Positions 22,872-33,907 of a DNA stretch of 33,994 bases are shown one piece after another. The position numbers were made by a program, and so were the translations under genes. Source of the DNA: a virus; the IMG/VR virus record IMGVR_UViG_3300030333_006202, positions 1 to 33,994 of that record; one strand, 5' to 3'. The notes beneath the pieces were generated by a model. The model was not told the DNA's origin. It saw nothing but the letters and a program-made list of their open reading frames with translations, and searched no databases. Each line of letters starts with the position of its first letter. Position 1 is the first letter of the stretch.

Positions 22872-23564
22872 ATGCAAATTTTTAATATTTTCCCCACCAC
22901 AATATATGTTGGGGAAGTGACTGAACATGAAAAACATAAAGAAGAGTTCTACAAGGTGTATCCTAAGTATGACTATGAGGAGACTTGTATTGACAATACT
23001 GTTAGTGAGAATATAGGTAATCCCTTTATTCATTTAGAGGATACACTGGATCCTCTATTTCAACAGATTGCTGCTCATGCTAGGAAATATACTTGTGAAG
23101 TTTTAGGGTATAGGGATATATTTAACTATGTAATTACTAAGACTTGGTTATCAAGGTCTAGAAGAGCTACTGATGAAATAAGGTGGCATATACATTCCAC
23201 CAGTCATATATCATTTGTATATTATGTCAACATACCACCTAACTCTCATGTATTAGAGTTTGATAATACATGTACTAAGAATGATTTATTTAAGACTATG
23301 AATGTTGAGGATGAGGATGATAAACCTAACAGAACAATGGTAGAAAATTATAATCCACTTAATGCTGAGACATTTTACATATCACCACTTGAAGGAAGTG
23401 TTGCAATGTTTCCTAGTAGTTTGTCACATAATACAAAGTTTAAAGGTGATAAGTTTGAAGGAGAGAGACTTGGTATTGTTGGAGATATAACTTTAATGCT
23501 TAAGGAAGATCAATTACATTACTCTATGGGATACATTGATAATAAATACTGGAAGAAATACTAA
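22872..23564 (+). CDS. 2OG-Fe(II) oxygenase, FPTxI-type
   Basis: This 230-aa protein belongs to a different 2OG-Fe(II) branch from the genes at 1732 and 2389. The start IFNIFPTTIYVGEV, the ITKTWLSR strand, the RWHIHSTSHISFVYYVN core, the PLEGSVAMFPSSLSHNT strand and ERLGIVGDI match the family often labelled 2OG-FeII_Oxy_5. Candidate ligands are H106 and/or H108 and H186; R199 would bind 2OG. Such proteins are common in cyanophages, where the substrate is unknown. The gene starts 3 nt after the 1855-aa fibre stop and ends inside the next late promoter, so it is cotranscribed with that fibre. Confidence 0.83.
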   Translation: MQIFNIFPTTIYVGEVTEHEKHKEEFYKVYPKYDYEETCIDNTVSENIGNPFIHLEDTLDPLFQQIAAHARKYTCEVLGYRDIFNYVITKTWLSRSRRATDEIRWHIHSTSHISFVYYVNIPPNSHVLEFDNTCTKNDLFKTMNVEDEDDKPNRTMVENYNPLNAETFYISPLEGSVAMFPSSLSHNTKFKGDKFEGERLGIVGDITLMLKEDQLHYSMGYIDNKYWKKY

Positions 23565-25506: not shown

Positions 25507-28500
25507 ATGGCGAATATTAGAAAGACATTCAACTTCCGCAATGGTGTTCAAGTTGATGAAGACAATTTTATAGTTGATCCCCTGGGCAAGGTGGGAATCG
25601 GTACCACCGTACCTGATGAATTTTTGGATGTTAGAGGTGATGTAAAGGTTGTAGGGATAATAACTTCACAAAGTATTGAAACTAGGAATGTAAATGTTGC
25701 TGGTGTAACTACATTTAGTGGTAATACTCATGTGGGTAGTGGTATTACAATGTATCCGTCTTCGGGTATTATTAGTGCTACAAGATTTTATGGAAATGCA
25801 AGTAGTTTAAGTAATCTTCCTACATCACAATGGATTAATGTTGCTGGTGCAGGACTTACAAGTATATACAATCAAGGATTCGTTGGTGTTTGTACAAATA
25901 ATCCAAAGTTTACATTCCAAGTAGGTGGTAATGATACTTTAGGTTCATTTGCTAATGGAGTTGGTATTAATTCTAGTGGTGGTATTGTAGCAACAGGAGT
26001 TGTTACAGCAACTAAATTTGTTGGAGATGTTGTAGGTGCAGTAAGTGGTGGTATAACAGGAGATATAAGTGGTAATGTTACTGCAACTTCTGTAGGAAGT
26101 ACATCATTAACTGTTACTGGTGTTTCTACATTTGCTGGTGGTGTTAATTTTGATAACGCAAGTGATGCTGGTAAAGATGTTGAGTGGCAACCCACGAATG
26201 ATAGATTATCCTTTATGGATGATGTTAAAGCAACATTTGGTAATGGTGCAGATTTAGGCATATATCATATTGGTGTAGGTAATACTTCTTACATTGATAA
26301 TTCTGGTAGTGGTAAACTTTTCATAAGAAATGGTACAAGTAATGATATTCATATTGAAGCACAGAATGATAAGTCTAGTATTATTTGCAGGAATGATGGG
26401 AAGGTAAAAATATATTATGATGGAGTTGAGAAGGTTGCTACAGGTGTGGAAGGTATTACAGTAGTAGGTGTTGCCTCTGCAGCACAATTTACTGGTGATG
26501 TTCATGCTGGTATAGTAACTGCAACAACTAGGTTAGAAGTCGCCAAACAGGGTATTGGTACTGCATCACCACAGAGTCAATTGCATGTATTCACTCATTC
26601 TGGTATATCATCTATTCAAGTAGAGAGTGGTTCTTCTGAAGCAATTATTAGTTTAGGTAAATTTGCAAATCAAAAACAAACTTCTGCTGAAATAGTATTT
26701 GGTAAGATTAGTGGTGGATTAAATTACAGTAACTCTGCATCACTTGATATTATCAATTATGATAATGGTAATGTTAATAATATTATTGATCTAGGTTCTG
26801 CTGCTGGAACTAATGCTGTTAGAGGAAATTGGAATTGGATGTCTGGTGCAGACATTAATAATCCTAGAATGACATTAACCCATGAAGGTAATTTGGGTAT
26901 AGGTAAAACTAATCCAGCAAGAGCACTTGATGTGGTTGGTATTTCAACATTTGCTAATGACTTATTTGTTGGTGCTAATAGTTGGGTTAAAGGTAATCTT
27001 AATGTTATTGGAAATTTAGTTGTTACTGGTACAACTGATATTGATATTGCTGGATTAAATGTAAATGCAACTACAGGACATTCTAAGGTTAAGAATTTAG
27101 ATGTAACTAATAATTTAAATGTTACTGGAATTACAACATTTAATGATAATGTTGGAATTGCTGGTACCGTAGGTAGTGGTAATTGGTTCCATGTCAATCC
27201 TGATGGGCATGTTGCTATTGGAACTGCAACTTTTGCGAATGCACCTACTGTTGGTTTAGATGCAAGACACACTCAATTCATTGCTCAAGGTATAGGGATA
27301 GGTCGTTCGGAATTAACAGCATCAGTTGACTTCTCTATGGCAGGTAGGGCACATGATGATGTTATTGTACCTGCTGCTCTAGCAGGTAGAATGTATATGT
27401 ACCCACCAAAGGTTAATGGTGACGAAAGAGATAATGACTTAATAGGTCTTACTGGTGGTGCAATAGTATATAATACTGATAATAATTCTCTTCAAGTATA
27501 TAATGGTAGTTCATGGACTAATCAGGCAGCAGGTGGAGTAACTACATTAAATGGATTATCTGATGTAACCATTAGTGGTAGTCCATCAACAGGACAATTC
27601 TTGAAATATACTGGTTCTGGATGGGAAAATGCTACTGGTACTATTGGTACTCTTAATGATCTTTCTAATGTTACACTCTCATCACCACAGACTAACCAAG
27701 TATTAAAATATAATGGTTCTGCATGGGTAAATGCTGCAAGTCCTGGTGGACTTGCTGATGTTGTTAGTGATACAAGTCCACAACTTGGTGGTAATTTAGA
27801 TACTAATACCAAGAATATTACATTTGGTGATAGTAGTGGTGCAACTGTTAATAGACTTACCTTTGGTACTGTTCCAGATATGTCTATATTTCATGATACA
27901 TCAAACTCTATTATTAGAGAAAGTGGAACTGGAGGACTTTATCTTCAAAGTGAAAATAATGTCTTCATTAGTAAAGAATCAGGAAATTCCAATGATGTAA
28001 TTGCTGATTTTAATGCTCAAGGTGCTGTAAGTCTTTACTATAATACTGCATCAGCAGGAAGTTCTTCTAAGAAATTTGAAACTACTTCTACTGGTGTTTC
28101 AATAAGTGGAAATATTACTGCAACTGGTAATGGTGTATTAAAATCTAGATCTACCGTAACAGGAACTGCAACTAACCTTGCTTCAGGTTCTGCAGTAGAT
28201 GTAGATATTACGGGAGCATTTAAATCATATGCTTTATTGAAAGTTGCTATTAATCGTCCAGCATGGGTAGTTCTATATACAAATGATACAACTAGAACTG
28301 CTGACGATAGTAGAAACTCAAGCACAGATCCTACACCAGGTTCAGGTGTAATTGCTGAAGTAATCACAACTGCTTCTGGTGCAAGTACATTTGTTATGAC
28401 ACCAGGTGTTATTGGATGGAATGATGATGGAACTCCAGCAACAACAATTTATGCAAAGGTTCAAAACTTAGATAGTGTTTCTAGAACTATCACAGTAACA

Positions 28501-28527
28501 TTAACATTATTACCATTAGAGGTATAG
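25507..28527 (+). CDS. 1006-aa beta-repeat fibre/virion protein
   Basis: The N-terminus MANIRKTFNFRNGVQVDEDNF is followed by spike repeats of the form VGIGTTxPxxxLDV (DPLGKVGIGTTVPDEFLDV, HEGNLGIGKTNPARALDVVG, PDGHVAIGTATF) and many short Gly/Thr-rich strands. Two near-identical LNGLSDVTISGSP and LNDLSNVTLSSP modules occur near residues 680-740. The last about 125 residues form a separate beta domain (VDVDITGAFKSYALLKVAINRPAW ... TLLPLEV). There is no S74 domain, unlike the two other large spike-type proteins. It is probably a structural fibre or baseplate-attached spike. It has its own late promoter; the subtilase-like gene follows after 7 nt. Confidence 0.78.
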   Translation: MANIRKTFNFRNGVQVDEDNFIVDPLGKVGIGTTVPDEFLDVRGDVKVVGIITSQSIETRNVNVAGVTTFSGNTHVGSGITMYPSSGIISATRFYGNASSLSNLPTSQWINVAGAGLTSIYNQGFVGVCTNNPKFTFQVGGNDTLGSFANGVGINSSGGIVATGVVTATKFVGDVVGAVSGGITGDISGNVTATSVGSTSLTVTGVSTFAGGVNFDNASDAGKDVEWQPTNDRLSFMDDVKATFGNGADLGIYHIGVGNTSYIDNSGSGKLFIRNGTSNDIHIEAQNDKSSIICRNDGKVKIYYDGVEKVATGVEGITVVGVASAAQFTGDVHAGIVTATTRLEVAKQGIGTASPQSQLHVFTHSGISSIQVESGSSEAIISLGKFANQKQTSAEIVFGKISGGLNYSNSASLDIINYDNGNVNNIIDLGSAAGTNAVRGNWNWMSGADINNPRMTLTHEGNLGIGKTNPARALDVVGISTFANDLFVGANSWVKGNLNVIGNLVVTGTTDIDIAGLNVNATTGHSKVKNLDVTNNLNVTGITTFNDNVGIAGTVGSGNWFHVNPDGHVAIGTATFANAPTVGLDARHTQFIAQGIGIGRSELTASVDFSMAGRAHDDVIVPAALAGRMYMYPPKVNGDERDNDLIGLTGGAIVYNTDNNSLQVYNGSSWTNQAAGGVTTLNGLSDVTISGSPSTGQFLKYTGSGWENATGTIGTLNDLSNVTLSSPQTNQVLKYNGSAWVNAASPGGLADVVSDTSPQLGGNLDTNTKNITFGDSSGATVNRLTFGTVPDMSIFHDTSNSIIRESGTGGLYLQSENNVFISKESGNSNDVIADFNAQGAVSLYYNTASAGSSSKKFETTSTGVSISGNITATGNGVLKSRSTVTGTATNLASGSAVDVDITGAFKSYALLKVAINRPAWVVLYTNDTTRTADDSRNSSTDPTPGSGVIAEVITTASGASTFVMTPGVIGWNDDGTPATTIYAKVQNLDSVSRTITVTLTLLPLEV

Positions 28528-28534
28528 ACGTAAC

Positions 28535-31500
28535 ATGGCAAAAATTGCAGTAGATGTTTTATTAGTCGATGGGACTAATGAAGAGACTTTTATTAGTAGT
28601 TTTGATGATATTCCTGAAGTTGAATTAAAGAATAGACTGCCAAATAGTCCAACTCTTCTTGTATTAAAAGTAGAAGAATCTTATATCTCTACTCTTGAAA
28701 GTGATTCGAGAGTTGTTTCTGTTGAGATTGTATTACCTTCCTTTTTACCAATAGCACCAATACATGATTCTGAACAATATGCAGAACGGAATAAAATAAT
28801 TGCAAAAGAAATAGAATTATTACCTAAAGAACCAGAGGGTTCTGATGTTAAGAAAGAGTATAATGTTACATGTAGTAATAAATCTGATTGGGATTTTATT
28901 CGTGAGGAATTAGAAAAAGATGGTTCAATAGAAGATAATATTCCAACACCTAATTGTCAGTGTTTTAATGAATGTCTTCAAAGTGATGTAAGAGGATCAT
29001 TTTTATTAACTGATAATGAAGCAGATGAACTTAGAAAAAATCCTAAAGTAATAAATGTTCATATTGAAACAAGAGCATATCCTGGTACTTATCCTCGTTT
29101 TGGTTCTGATTTCACTGAAGCGAAGGAATATAGATATGCGTCTACTGTAAAACATCAAAGAGATTGGGATAGTAGTGGTATAACACCATCAACACCAAAT
29201 AAAAGTCTTGAAAATAGGTGTAGTTCTCAATTAAAGAGGCATATGCAGAAGGCAGATCCTTGGCAAGTTGTTTCTAATGATGGACAAGTATTTGATGATA
29301 GAATACAACAGCATGGTACTGGAAAGGATGTTGATATAATTGTTTGTGATGAGAATGTTTGGTTTGGTCATATTGAATTTCAAAATGATTACGATACAAA
29401 TAATAATAGTGAAAGTATGACTGCACCATCAAATTATACTGGTGGTAATGTATTAAAAAGTGGTCATGCTACTTCTGCTACAAATGGAACATGTGATATT
29501 TTAGATTTAGTCTTAGATGCTCCATATTATATTGATCCTGCTTGGTTTGAAGCAGATGCTAGTAATAGATTAGTAGTTCGTTGGGATGGTACAACTGTTC
29601 CTAGTGAATCAGCAGCAAAGGCATGGTGGTCTAATGGTAGTAGTAGATCTAGTCAATTTCTTAATTCAGGTACAGTTTCTTCAAGTACATTAAGTTCTTA
29701 TACAAGATTAAAATGTAACGGAAGTAATGTATCAAGAAATACTTCGAGTGGAACACATGGAACACCTTGTATGTCACAGGCATATGGGAGACAATATGGA
29801 TGGGCATATAATGCTAATAAATGGTTTCTTAGTACAATAAGTAGTAATTCTCCATCTTTTGAAGCATGTTTTGATATGCAAAAGATATTTCATCAAACAA
29901 AACCAAATAGACCATCTGATAATACTAAAAATCCAACAGTTAGTTCAAATAGTTGGGGATTGAGAATAGCACCACTTAGTTCTGGATGGTATTATTTTAG
30001 ACCTTCTGCTATTGATGGATCAGTTACAGGTGTTCAGTATATTACTAGACCTGCATTTTTGGATAATTTTACTGGTGATGGTACTAATGATAGAGGAGGA
30101 GAGTATGAGAGTACAGGAGCAACAATGATAGCAGGTAAGGAAATGGTTGATGCTGGTGTTATTTTTGTTTGTTCAGCAGGTAATAATTGCCAAAAAAATG
30201 TTCATAGTAATCATCCCGATTATAATAATTATTTTGCTTCATCTTCTTCTACATCATATGAGAATTCTAAACGTTGGACTGGTTATAGTGATGATCTAAA
30301 TGGTGCTAAAGAATATGGTTCTACCAGTCGTAGATCATTTCCAGGACAGATAGGTATTGATAGAACTACTACACCATATACGTACAAAACTCTCTATATT
30401 GGTTGTATTGATGATGTGTTTGATGGTAATGGGAAAGAACGGAATGTATATTACACTAATAAAGGTGAAGGGATAGATGGATGGACACAGGGTGATGCTA
30501 CATTAGGAGCAGCATCTTATTTAACTCCTGGTTTTTTGGATGCTCCTGTTTATAATCGTTATGATAAAACTTTTACAATAGCACATGGAAATGATGACAA
30601 TGATTCTGCTCAGAGAGATACGAGTGATACATCTAATACTACATCTTTAATTTCAAAAGATCAATTTTTTAATGGTACAAGTTCTGCTTGTCCTATTGCT
30701 GCTGGTATAATAGCAACTGTATTGGAGACTAATAGAAATTGGACATTTGAAGATGTAAGAGATTGGATGAAGGATGATTGTGGACAAGCAGATACTAATA
30801 ATTTTTATATGGGAAATGAAGCAACAACTGCTCACGATAGTTATTGGGAAGATCTAAATTCTGCTCAAGGTTATGCACCAACTATATTATGGGATGCTGT
30901 ACCATCAGCAGGTGGAGGAGGAGGTGGAGGAGGAAATCCTCGTGCTATCCCTGATTACTATTCATTAACAAATAAGACTTTAAAGACTTCTTCTATCACA
31001 GGAGATGGAACTAATTATATTTCACTACAACATTACTTGGATAGTGATATTATAAGGGGTGAAGCAAATAAAACCATTGGAGGACATAATTCAGCAGATG
31101 ATTATCAAAACTTCTCTGGTGTCACATATAAGAGTAGATGGACTGGAAAGTATGTAGATATTGTGACTATGGAGGCAACTACTGTTGCGTCATTTGCTGG
31201 TTATCAAGATACACATCCAGATTTTGATAATCCAGATAATACAGGAAATACAAGATGTGTACCTATGAATTGGTCAGGTTGTGAAGGTGCAAGTAACAAT
31301 CAAGTTAGTAATAATAGTATGTTCTCTGCACATGGAATAGGAGTTCTTAGTGCTGCTGGTGGAATATATGGTGGATTAGCAAAGAGAGCATCTTTAAGAG
31401 CATGTTATTGTGGTGATGGTGATGATCAAGTAGAATGTTTTGATGCTATTAAAGCATGGCATAATGCTAAAGGAAACAATTCAGAAACAGGAGTTAAAAA

Positions 31501-32560
31501 TCCAACTATAGTTATTGCAGAGTATCAATGGTTGGCAGATAATTATTATGCAATTAAAGTTGAAGATGTTAATAGTGTTACAGATCCTACAGGTGGAACA
31601 ACAAGTAAACCTGGTGGTGGATGGGGTTCTGATTTAACTCCATTTACATCAAAAAATATCTATCCATATAGAGTTAAAGATCCAGATGATAATTCATGGC
31701 ATTGGATGGTAACATTACCATATCAAACTCAACATACTTCTTTAAAGACTGCAATGGATCAAGCGTGGGATGCTGGAATTATTCTTATAAATGCTGCTGG
31801 TAACAATGGTGGTGTTTATGTTAAAGAAAATGATGCAAGATGGAATGGAACATATATTGATATTACTTCTGGAACTACAAAATATGATATTCGTTATTCA
31901 GAATCTGAAGGTTCTACTGTAACAAAAGGAACGACAAGTACAACTAGATGGTATCCACTTAGAGCATATGGACCACATGGACATGTAAAAAGTATAGACG
32001 TTGCTGCTGGACAGAATAGTGAAACACATCCAATTTTAGATGGATATAGTAATAGAGGTCCAGGTATTGATATAACTGGATTGGGTGCAGAAACATATAC
32101 ATCTTATCCAACTACCACAGATAGCAATGGACATAAGTGGGGATTTTTCTCAGGAACCAGTTGTGCTGCTCCTACAGTTGTAGGTAAGGCAGCATGTATA
32201 TTAGAAAAATATTATACTTATCATGGTTCATTCCCTACTCCTGATCAATTAAAACAAATGCTTCTTGCTCAGTCAAAGGATGTCTTAGCATCTGTTGATT
32301 CTACTACATGGAATAATGTTCCAACTGCATCTGATAATGATATTGAAATTTCAGAAAGTATGAGTTCGTCTTCTGTATTGAAAATCAAGACAGGTATATC
32401 TGCAAATGGTAGTTTTAGGATGGCAGAATTGGCAGGAACACCCAATAAGAGAGCATATTGGAACGCAAAGGGGTATAAGAGAAGAAGTACAAAGGGTAGA
32501 AGACCATTTAGTGGAAAAGTATATCCTAGACGTAACAATAGGATTGAAAAACGTAGTTAA
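28535..32560 (+). CDS. Double-headed subtilisin-like (S8) protein with two pro-domain-like modules
   Basis: This 1341-aa protein holds two subtilase domains. Domain 1 has D272 (VDIIVCDEN), H408 (GTHGTPCMSQ), oxyanion N550 (SAGNN) and S716 (NGTSSACP). Domain 2 has E880 where Asp is expected (VDIVTMEAT), H933 (SAHGIG), N1090 (AAGNN) and S1209 (SGTSCAAP). Eight glycines (793-800) separate them. Upstream are two modules (about 1-70 and 107-185), each ending in a VVSVE- or VINVH-type strand like I9 propeptide inhibitors. The extreme C-terminus (from about 1305) is strongly basic. There is no signal peptide. S8 enzymes hydrolyse proteins; here the target could be fibre precursors, host surface proteins or itself. 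It is cotranscribed with the 1006-aa fibre. Confidence 0.85.
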   Translation: MAKIAVDVLLVDGTNEETFISSFDDIPEVELKNRLPNSPTLLVLKVEESYISTLESDSRVVSVEIVLPSFLPIAPIHDSEQYAERNKIIAKEIELLPKEPEGSDVKKEYNVTCSNKSDWDFIREELEKDGSIEDNIPTPNCQCFNECLQSDVRGSFLLTDNEADELRKNPKVINVHIETRAYPGTYPRFGSDFTEAKEYRYASTVKHQRDWDSSGITPSTPNKSLENRCSSQLKRHMQKADPWQVVSNDGQVFDDRIQQHGTGKDVDIIVCDENVWFGHIEFQNDYDTNNNSESMTAPSNYTGGNVLKSGHATSATNGTCDILDLVLDAPYYIDPAWFEADASNRLVVRWDGTTVPSESAAKAWWSNGSSRSSQFLNSGTVSSSTLSSYTRLKCNGSNVSRNTSSGTHGTPCMSQAYGRQYGWAYNANKWFLSTISSNSPSFEACFDMQKIFHQTKPNRPSDNTKNPTVSSNSWGLRIAPLSSGWYYFRPSAIDGSVTGVQYITRPAFLDNFTGDGTNDRGGEYESTGATMIAGKEMVDAGVIFVCSAGNNCQKNVHSNHPDYNNYFASSSSTSYENSKRWTGYSDDLNGAKEYGSTSRRSFPGQIGIDRTTTPYTYKTLYIGCIDDVFDGNGKERNVYYTNKGEGIDGWTQGDATLGAASYLTPGFLDAPVYNRYDKTFTIAHGNDDNDSAQRDTSDTSNTTSLISKDQFFNGTSSACPIAAGIIATVLETNRNWTFEDVRDWMKDDCGQADTNNFYMGNEATTAHDSYWEDLNSAQGYAPTILWDAVPSAGGGGGGGGNPRAIPDYYSLTNKTLKTSSITGDGTNYISLQHYLDSDIIRGEANKTIGGHNSADDYQNFSGVTYKSRWTGKYVDIVTMEATTVASFAGYQDTHPDFDNPDNTGNTRCVPMNWSGCEGASNNQVSNNSMFSAHGIGVLSAAGGIYGGLAKRASLRACYCGDGDDQVECFDAIKAWHNAKGNNSETGVKNPTIVIAEYQWLADNYYAIKVEDVNSVTDPTGGTTSKPGGGWGSDLTPFTSKNIYPYRVKDPDDNSWHWMVTLPYQTQHTSLKTAMDQAWDAGIILINAAGNNGGVYVKENDARWNGTYIDITSGTTKYDIRYSESEGSTVTKGTTSTTRWYPLRAYGPHGHVKSIDVAAGQNSETHPILDGYSNRGPGIDITGLGAETYTSYPTTTDSNGHKWGFFSGTSCAAPTVVGKAACILEKYYTYHGSFPTPDQLKQMLLAQSKDVLASVDSTTWNNVPTASDNDIEISESMSSSSVLKIKTGISANGSFRMAELAGTPNKRAYWNAKGYKRRSTKGRRPFSGKVYPRRNNRIEKRS

Positions 32561-32701: not shown

Positions 32702-33907
32702 ATGCAGTTACGCCCACATCAGGTAGAAGCGATTACAGCATTAAGTGAGAATAATAAAGGACAAGTTATCATTCCCACAGGAGGTGGTAAGACATTTGTT
32801 GCTATTAGTGATGCTGTTAAGAGACTTAAGAATGTTGAAGTTAATACAGACGAACAAGTACCTACCACACTTGTAGTAGTTGCTCCACGCATCCTGTTAG
32901 CAGAGCAGTTGAGTTCTGAGTTTATGGAAGTGCTTGAGAGGGAGGTTGGTAAGGTTTCTATGATACATGTTCATAGTGGCAAGTTCAAAGATATATTCAG
33001 CACCACTCAACCGTCTTGCATAAGTGCATTTACACAGGTATCACTAGAGAGGCAGATTATCTTCACAACATACAACTCACTTCATAAGATTGTTGAGTCT
33101 GGTATTGATGTGGATACAATCTACTATGATGAAGCACATAACTCAGTTCAGAAGAACTTTGTGGAGGCAGTAGAGTATTTTTCGTTACACGCAAGGCGAT
33201 GCTATTTCTTTACTGCTACACCAAAGCACAGTCTAACACCTTTCAAGATAGGTATGAACGACTCTGATATATTTGGTGAGGTAATCTATAATGTACCAGC
33301 ACCTAAGTTGGTTGAGGAGGGATACATCCTACCACCTAAAGTGAAAGTATATAAGACTGACATCAGAGAGAAGGATGAATTGACATATAATGTTGACAAG
33401 GAACAAATCATTGATAACATTGATGATCACAATACTAAGAAGATACTTGTATGTGCTAAGTCAACTAAACAAATTGTTAGATTGATTTCTCATACTGATT
33501 TTGTTGATGAGTTAGCATACAGAGGATATGAATACATGTATATTACTGCTAAGACTGGTGCAGTAATCAATGGTGAGCAAGTCAGTAGAGAGGAGTTTTT
33601 CAATGTGCTGAGTGCCTATGGACAGGATGATGAGAAGAAGTTTGTAGTCTTGCATCATAGTATATTGGCAGAAGGTATCAATGTAAAGGGGTTAGAAGCA
33701 GTCTTGTTTCTACGCTCTATGAATTACATTGGAATCAGTCAAACAATAGGCAGGGTAATCCGTAAGGGTTGCAAAGAGAAGACTTATGGGTTAATATCAG
33801 TACCAGTATATTCTAAGGTTGGCATCTCAACTGCCAAAAAAGTACAGGCAGTTGTGGATACAGTCTTTAACAAAGGAGAACCAGCAATTACGGTGGTAAG
33901 AAAATGA
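32702..33907 (+). CDS. DEAH-box SF2 helicase
   Basis: This 401-aa protein has the superfamily 2 motifs in order: Q-like LRPHQVEA at the N-terminus, Walker A PTGGGKT (about 25-31), Ia VAPRILLAEQL, II DEAH (143-146), III FTAT (about 171-174), IV-V ILVCAKSTKQ and ILAEGINVKG, and VI SQTIGRVIRKG (about 346-356). It resembles the type III restriction/UvsW-like helicases of T4-type cyanophages, which unwind DNA or remodel forks during replication and repair. The length is that of a stand-alone phage helicase. It lies after a terminator and has more mixed codon use than the fibre genes, so it belongs to a different expression unit. The next gene overlaps by 4 nt. Confidence 0.88.
   Translation: MQLRPHQVEAITALSENNKGQVIIPTGGGKTFVAISDAVKRLKNVEVNTDEQVPTTLVVVAPRILLAEQLSSEFMEVLEREVGKVSMIHVHSGKFKDIFSTTQPSCISAFTQVSLERQIIFTTYNSLHKIVESGIDVDTIYYDEAHNSVQKNFVEAVEYFSLHARRCYFFTATPKHSLTPFKIGMNDSDIFGEVIYNVPAPKLVEEGYILPPKVKVYKTDIREKDELTYNVDKEQIIDNIDDHNTKKILVCAKSTKQIVRLISHTDFVDELAYRGYEYMYITAKTGAVINGEQVSREEFFNVLSAYGQDDEKKFVVLHHSILAEGINVKGLEAVLFLRSMNYIGISQTIGRVIRKGCKEKTYGLISVPVYSKVGISTAKKVQAVVDTVFNKGEPAITVVRK

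Follow-up and report, generated by a model that had tools for sequence, protein, structure and literature searches.

A single uninterrupted open reading frame of 1341 codons occupies positions 28535-32560 (plus strand) of the virus record IMGVR_UViG_3300030333_006202, which was analysed over its full 33,994 bases and is referred to here as the window. The helicase of the window is 58-64% identical to those of marine cyanophages and its long tail fibre 47-53%, matches that place the virus among the T4-like cyanophages, Kyanoviridae and kin. Judged from these sequence matches, the source is a marine cyanobacterial virus that carries this protease gene among its tail-fibre genes, and the fibre gene found directly upstream bears out the tail-cluster setting that an earlier note had read from the DNA letters. 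The 1341-residue product matches Pfam Peptidase_S8 in two stretches (E 7e-26), and we refer to the corresponding catalytic domains as core 1 and core 2 and to the pro-domains assigned to them as proB and proA, respectively. The features discussed below are as follows.

28123-28524, plus strand: domain X, which forms the C-terminal end of the fibre gene at 25507-28527, upstream of the protease, and is a typical neighbour of core-2 genes.
28535-32560, plus strand: the whole nested two-core subtilase gene, an open frame with Pfam S8 in two stretches.
28535-28798, plus strand: proA (residues 1-88), aligning at 43% to S-CAM1 residues 6-86 and to positions 8-80 of phrog_15006; directly before core 2 in relatives, with its fold seen in the L017 model.
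28832-29110, plus strand: proB (residues 100-192, domain about 96-190), the start of the guest protease, supported by positions 3-77 of phrog_9158, by its fold and by a weak Pfam I9 match.
29111-30904, plus strand: core 1 of the guest (residues 193-790; D272/H408/N550/S716), aligning at 38.7% to S-SSM7, with Z 29.9 to aqualysin I and a triad invariant over 91 rows.
30911-30934, plus strand: octaglycine linker (residues 793-800), read from the sequence, where core-1 relatives have their own C-terminal beta-tag.
30938-32404, plus strand: core 2, the body of the host protease (from residue 802; E880/H933/N1090/S1209), aligning at 47% to S-CAM1, with E/H/N/S invariant, and belonging to phrog_15006.
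32501-32530, plus strand: C-terminal tag RPFSGKVYPR (RPxxGxxYPR), defined by pattern counts in core-2 versus core-1 homologues.

Two side observations concern the same region. Three 2OG-Fe(II) oxygenase-like genes lie among the tail-fibre genes (1732-2373, 2389-2973 and 22872-23561), and the helicase gene (32702-33904) has a GC3 of 0.35 versus 0.11-0.14 in the adjoining fibre and protease genes.

Nested architecture of the gene

The 751-residue protein of S-CAM1 aligns to residues 2-85 and 802-1341 of the window protein, and the 738-residue protein of S-SSM7 aligns to residues 96-788. Assignment to PHROG families splits the gene likewise: proA and core 2 fall in phrog_15006 (the S-CAM1 type), where core 2 covers positions 308-741 of 751, and proB and core 1 fall in phrog_9158 (the S-SSM7 type), where window residues 104-773 cover positions 3-540 of 696. 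On the strength of these alignments, we conclude that the gene is a nested fusion, in which a complete proB-core1 protease of the S-SSM7 type stands between the pro-domain and the core of a proA-core2 protease of the S-CAM1 type.

For comparison we assembled 57 core-2 loci and 80 core-1 loci from IMG/VR. Wherever proA can be detected in a complete core-2 gene other than that of the window, the order is plain proA-core2 with no insert, while in two divergent core-2 genes (L028 and L064) the proA position is occupied by sequence that a single-sequence search does not recognize as proA; in core-1 genes, proB lies near the gene start. ProA was never seen without core 2 among the examined loci, no locus besides the window held both families within the fetched flanks of the core-1 and core-2 loci, and no second nested copy turned up in IMG/VR or the phage records, which may lack near-identical entries, whether the query was the full-length protein, either family profile or residues 1-122. 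Core 1 is up to 52-54% identical to its IMG/VR relatives, core 2 has two weak local matches only in bacterial and archaeal genomes, and composition gives no sign of the guest being a recent foreign arrival. The octaglycine linker described in the earlier note is indeed an eight-glycine run at residues 793-800, and since a few core-1 relatives (L082, L114 and L120) naturally carry a poly-Gly run before their C-terminal tag, it may derive from the guest protease.

Elsewhere in the comparison set, a 2140-residue virion protein of S-TIM54 (L011:5013-11432) contains an alpha/beta-hydrolase-like stretch between its pro-domain and its S8 core, followed by Ig-like repeats, so that here too a subtilase pro-domain is separated from its core by a domain that resembles an enzyme. 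Two to three separate core-1 protease genes per locus, some of them adjoining, are present in L114, L120, L123, L128, L082, L090, L098 and L106.

Structure models were obtained for window residues 1-800 (mean pLDDT 83) and for L017, a natural proA-core2 protein (mean pLDDT 68.5). Core 1 adopts the subtilisin fold, superposing on aqualysin I (4dzt) at 2.3 Å over 270 residues, and the core-2 fold is seen via L017, which superposes on a solved subtilisin with Z 26.8 and 3.0 Å over 258 residues. ProB shows the beta-alpha-beta-beta-alpha-beta order of an I9-type fold, mostly at good confidence; proA shows this order only in the L017 model and has low confidence in the window's own model. Pfam I9 (PF05922) stays short of its cut-off for proB (E 0.11) and gives no match for proA, so that the earlier description of two leading I9-like modules holds as far as two pro-domains and the modelled proB fold are concerned, but is backed weakly by Pfam for proB and not at all for proA. 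Two-domain matches of the L017 model to solved pro-subtilisins gave rmsd values of about 22-25 Å, and no model placed proA docked on core 2.

Family relations and active sites of the two cores

In a maximum-likelihood tree, core 1 of the window falls within the core-1 family and core 2 within the core-2 family, with 100/100 support on the core-2 side. The active-site residues previously named are all found in place, D272, H408, N550 and S716 in core 1 and E880, H933, N1090 and S1209 in core 2, and together with the two Pfam stretches and the modelled folds they confirm the presence of two S8 cores. Core 1 carries the Asp/His/Ser triad and oxyanion Asn of Peptidase S8 by sequence position and by invariance (D, H and N each in 91/91 rows, S in 90/90). 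Core 2, which matches Pfam S8 on its own (E 7e-12), has no classical catalytic Asp, and we do not claim D-H-S membership for it. Across the 34-row core-2 alignment, window included, Glu stands at this site in 32/32 rows with letters there, alongside His in 34/34, the oxyanion Asn in 33/33 and Ser in 32/32. ProA rows scattered when aligned to the window, and were left out of that alignment. In profile alignments to subtilisin BPN', D272 and E880 fall at Asp32, in a stretch where both alignments are weak, and Asn155 and Ser221 are matched in both cores, in agreement with the earlier assignment of Glu880 to the catalytic Asp site.

Because Glu, His, Asn and Ser are fixed across the core-2 family, Glu880 is not a product of decay in the window copy. 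Glu at the catalytic Asp site is, as far as the alignments reach, a feature of the family as a whole, in which the remaining machinery is kept and activity is presumably retained. A narrow literature check on subtilisin D32E, on Ser-His-Glu and on tandem or two-domain subtilases found no relevant description. Subtilisin, proteinase K and aqualysin (MEROPS S8A) have the fold and His/Asn/Ser in common with the window protein, and with core 1 the Asp as well, but differ from it in the Glu of core 2 and in the nested two-protease architecture. The large insertions of core 1, once suggested to be binding modules, contain stretches conserved throughout the family, such as RWDGTTVP, and therefore are not modules special to the window protein.

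Cupredoxin-like stretches (YTLxGTDxNGSVxG...HPFxI...YYYxCxxHxxMxGTI) occur in several related proteases (L001:7986-10238, L003:5935-8391 and L005:7995-10394), where their Pfam matches fall below cut-off, and are absent from the window protease. Their insertion site varies, lying in the Glu-His gap in S-CAM1 and in the His-Ser gap in AG-345-F15 and L005.

Neighbouring domains, C-terminal tag and probable virion association

The fibre gene that ends just before the protease start terminates in domain X (phrog_9627/15343), for which a Pfam search gave no match above cut-off. Of the other core-2 genes, 43/45 have X upstream, as against none of the 91 core-1 genes; a different domain, Y, lies upstream of 73 of these 91, and a gene starting with domain Z is found downstream of 70/97 core-1 genes. 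Counted as 70% clusters, core 2 is split 5X/1Y versus 0X/26Y for core 1 (Fisher p 3e-5), a pairing rule that rests on few independent core-2 clusters and has one clear exception, a proA-core2 gene that follows a Y-type fibre gene (L023:5450-8026). Among isolates, X accompanies the proteases of S-CAM1 and of the Asp-bearing S-CREM1, S-H38 and Sf-FR1, and Y those of S-SSM7, P-SSM2, S-SCSM1, S-T4, Sf-FS3 and S-SCSM2R.

The closest known systems each resemble one part of the window gene. S-CAM1 AOV58349 (PHROG 15006, annotated as a putative proximal tail fiber protein) shares proA, the Glu-bearing core 2, RPxxGxxYPR and an X-bearing gene directly upstream, but has no inserted protease, and its Glu and His are separated by a cupredoxin-like insert. 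S-SSM7 YP_004324284 (T4-GC 292, PHROG 9158) shares proB and core 1 over residues 96-788, but is encoded on its own, ends in a C-terminal beta-tag of its own and is flanked by Y upstream and by Z downstream. The S-CREM1 peptidase and the subtilisin-like proteases of S-H38 and Sf-FR1 are relatives with a single core, each preceded by an X-bearing 'tail pin' gene; S-CREM1 and Sf-FR1 have a tag of the window's type and S-H38 has a near-variant, and, unlike core 2 of the window, all three have the catalytic Asp.

The RPxxGxxYPR tag is present by pattern in 41/46 core-2 homologues, with 4 more near-variants, versus 0/93 core-1 homologues. The C-terminal tags of core-1 relatives are of other kinds and often beta-rich, and core 1 of the window has no tag of its own, with the Gly8 linker in its place. 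The basic tail noticed earlier as a possible anchor is therefore real, but is the conserved motif of the core-2 family rather than a generic charge patch. A small non-protease protein from the same gene region of another locus (L003:3463-3825) also ends in a core-2-type RRPxSGxxYPR tag.

In AG-345-L05, a phage syntenic with the window, the matching fibre N-terminus (47% over 218 residues) is followed by Y, then by a core-1-like protease, and then by Z and the helicase. At this site the window carries X and the nested gene ahead of the helicase; neither Y nor Z was found in the window. The retention of X and of RPxxGxxYPR, with Y and Z absent, identifies the core-2 gene as the host and indicates that the guest arrived without its usual neighbours. 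By gene content, then, the locus is a core-2 locus, and core 1 a guest separated from Y, from Z and from its own C-terminal beta-tag.

Evidence bearing on virion association comes from the record of S-SCSM1, in which the protease gp144 and its upstream Y-bearing partner gp145 are both marked as virion proteins. gp144 is an S8 protein with lectin-like domains and a distant relative, at 24% to the proB-core1 region of the window protein. By our count the mark is on about 47 genes, NMNAT and a D-Ala-D-Ala carboxypeptidase among them; PMC9602691 gives 45 virion proteins by mass spectrometry and names these two enzymes, from which we infer that the mark denotes mass-spectrometry detection.

Proposed function and alternative explanations

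The best joint explanation, to which we assign a probability of roughly 0.6, combines the nested fusion with two active, virion-borne cores docked via core 2. The product is most likely a virion-mounted two-headed protease, with core 1 riding on the docking site of core 2. Each pro-domain would fold and block its own core, which would require proA to act on core 2 over an intervening stretch of about 700 residues that includes the folded core 1. Both cores, with Asp-His-Ser in core 1 and Glu-His-Ser in core 2, would be active and would be carried on the virion. Docking would involve domain X on the fibre together with core 2 and its tag, and the fusion would thereby mount two cutting specificities at a single docking site, for use on host surface proteins at adsorption or in tail-fibre trimming.

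An alternative that we regard as unlikely, yet the strongest of those considered, is that the protease serves virion assembly by trimming the tail fibres or the partner domain X/Y, and does not act on the host surface. The close association between a protease type and the fibre C-terminal domain next to it could be that of enzyme and substrate; the virion marks on the related S-SCSM1 protease and its partner fit retention in the particle, but assembly proteases can be retained too. It is less probable again, perhaps one chance in several, that core 2 is a pseudoprotease serving for attachment only and that core 1 is the sole enzyme. Replacement of the catalytic Asp by Glu throughout the family could mean low or no activity, but His, the oxyanion Asn and the nucleophile Ser are invariant in all relatives with letters there, and the family stands alone in other phages with its own pro-domain.

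We consider it very improbable that the proteases of two co-occurring phages were joined during metagenome assembly. The nested copy has been seen once, and its second junction falls within a Gly-rich GGA/GGT run, but a chimera needs two joins, both in frame and at domain borders; moreover, the first junction lacks repeats, GC and GC3 do not change from one side to the other, and the guest is flanked on either side by core-2-type sequence, with X as the expected neighbour. Finally, an in-place tandem duplication with the second copy drifting to reduced activity, as the earlier note proposed for a pro-pro-core-core order, can practically be set aside: one gene does hold two pro-domains and two S8 cores, with Glu at the Asp site of core 2, but the cores lie in separate clades with relatives that carry each half alone, their best pairwise match is 30% over only 79 residues, proA and proB have no BLAST match, and drift is contradicted by a Glu that is family-wide with His/Asn/Ser kept. 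As the cores belong to separate well-supported families, each with its own pro-domain, the two proteases are nested, and tandem duplication does not account for their order.

The fullest form of the preferred explanation, a nested fusion with two active cores on the virion, is one we hold tentatively, at somewhat less than even odds: a natural protease within a protease, in which proA would act across the intruder, the host core would work as Glu-His-Ser, and the pair would dock by a swappable module of X and RPxxGxxYPR. The protein would thus be a test case for how far from its core a pro-domain can act, and it points to a subtilase family in which a fixed Glu replaces the catalytic Asp. The pairing of each cyanophage protease type with a specific C-terminal domain of the adjoining fibre gene suggests, in turn, that the tail-borne enzymes of phages follow a docking code.
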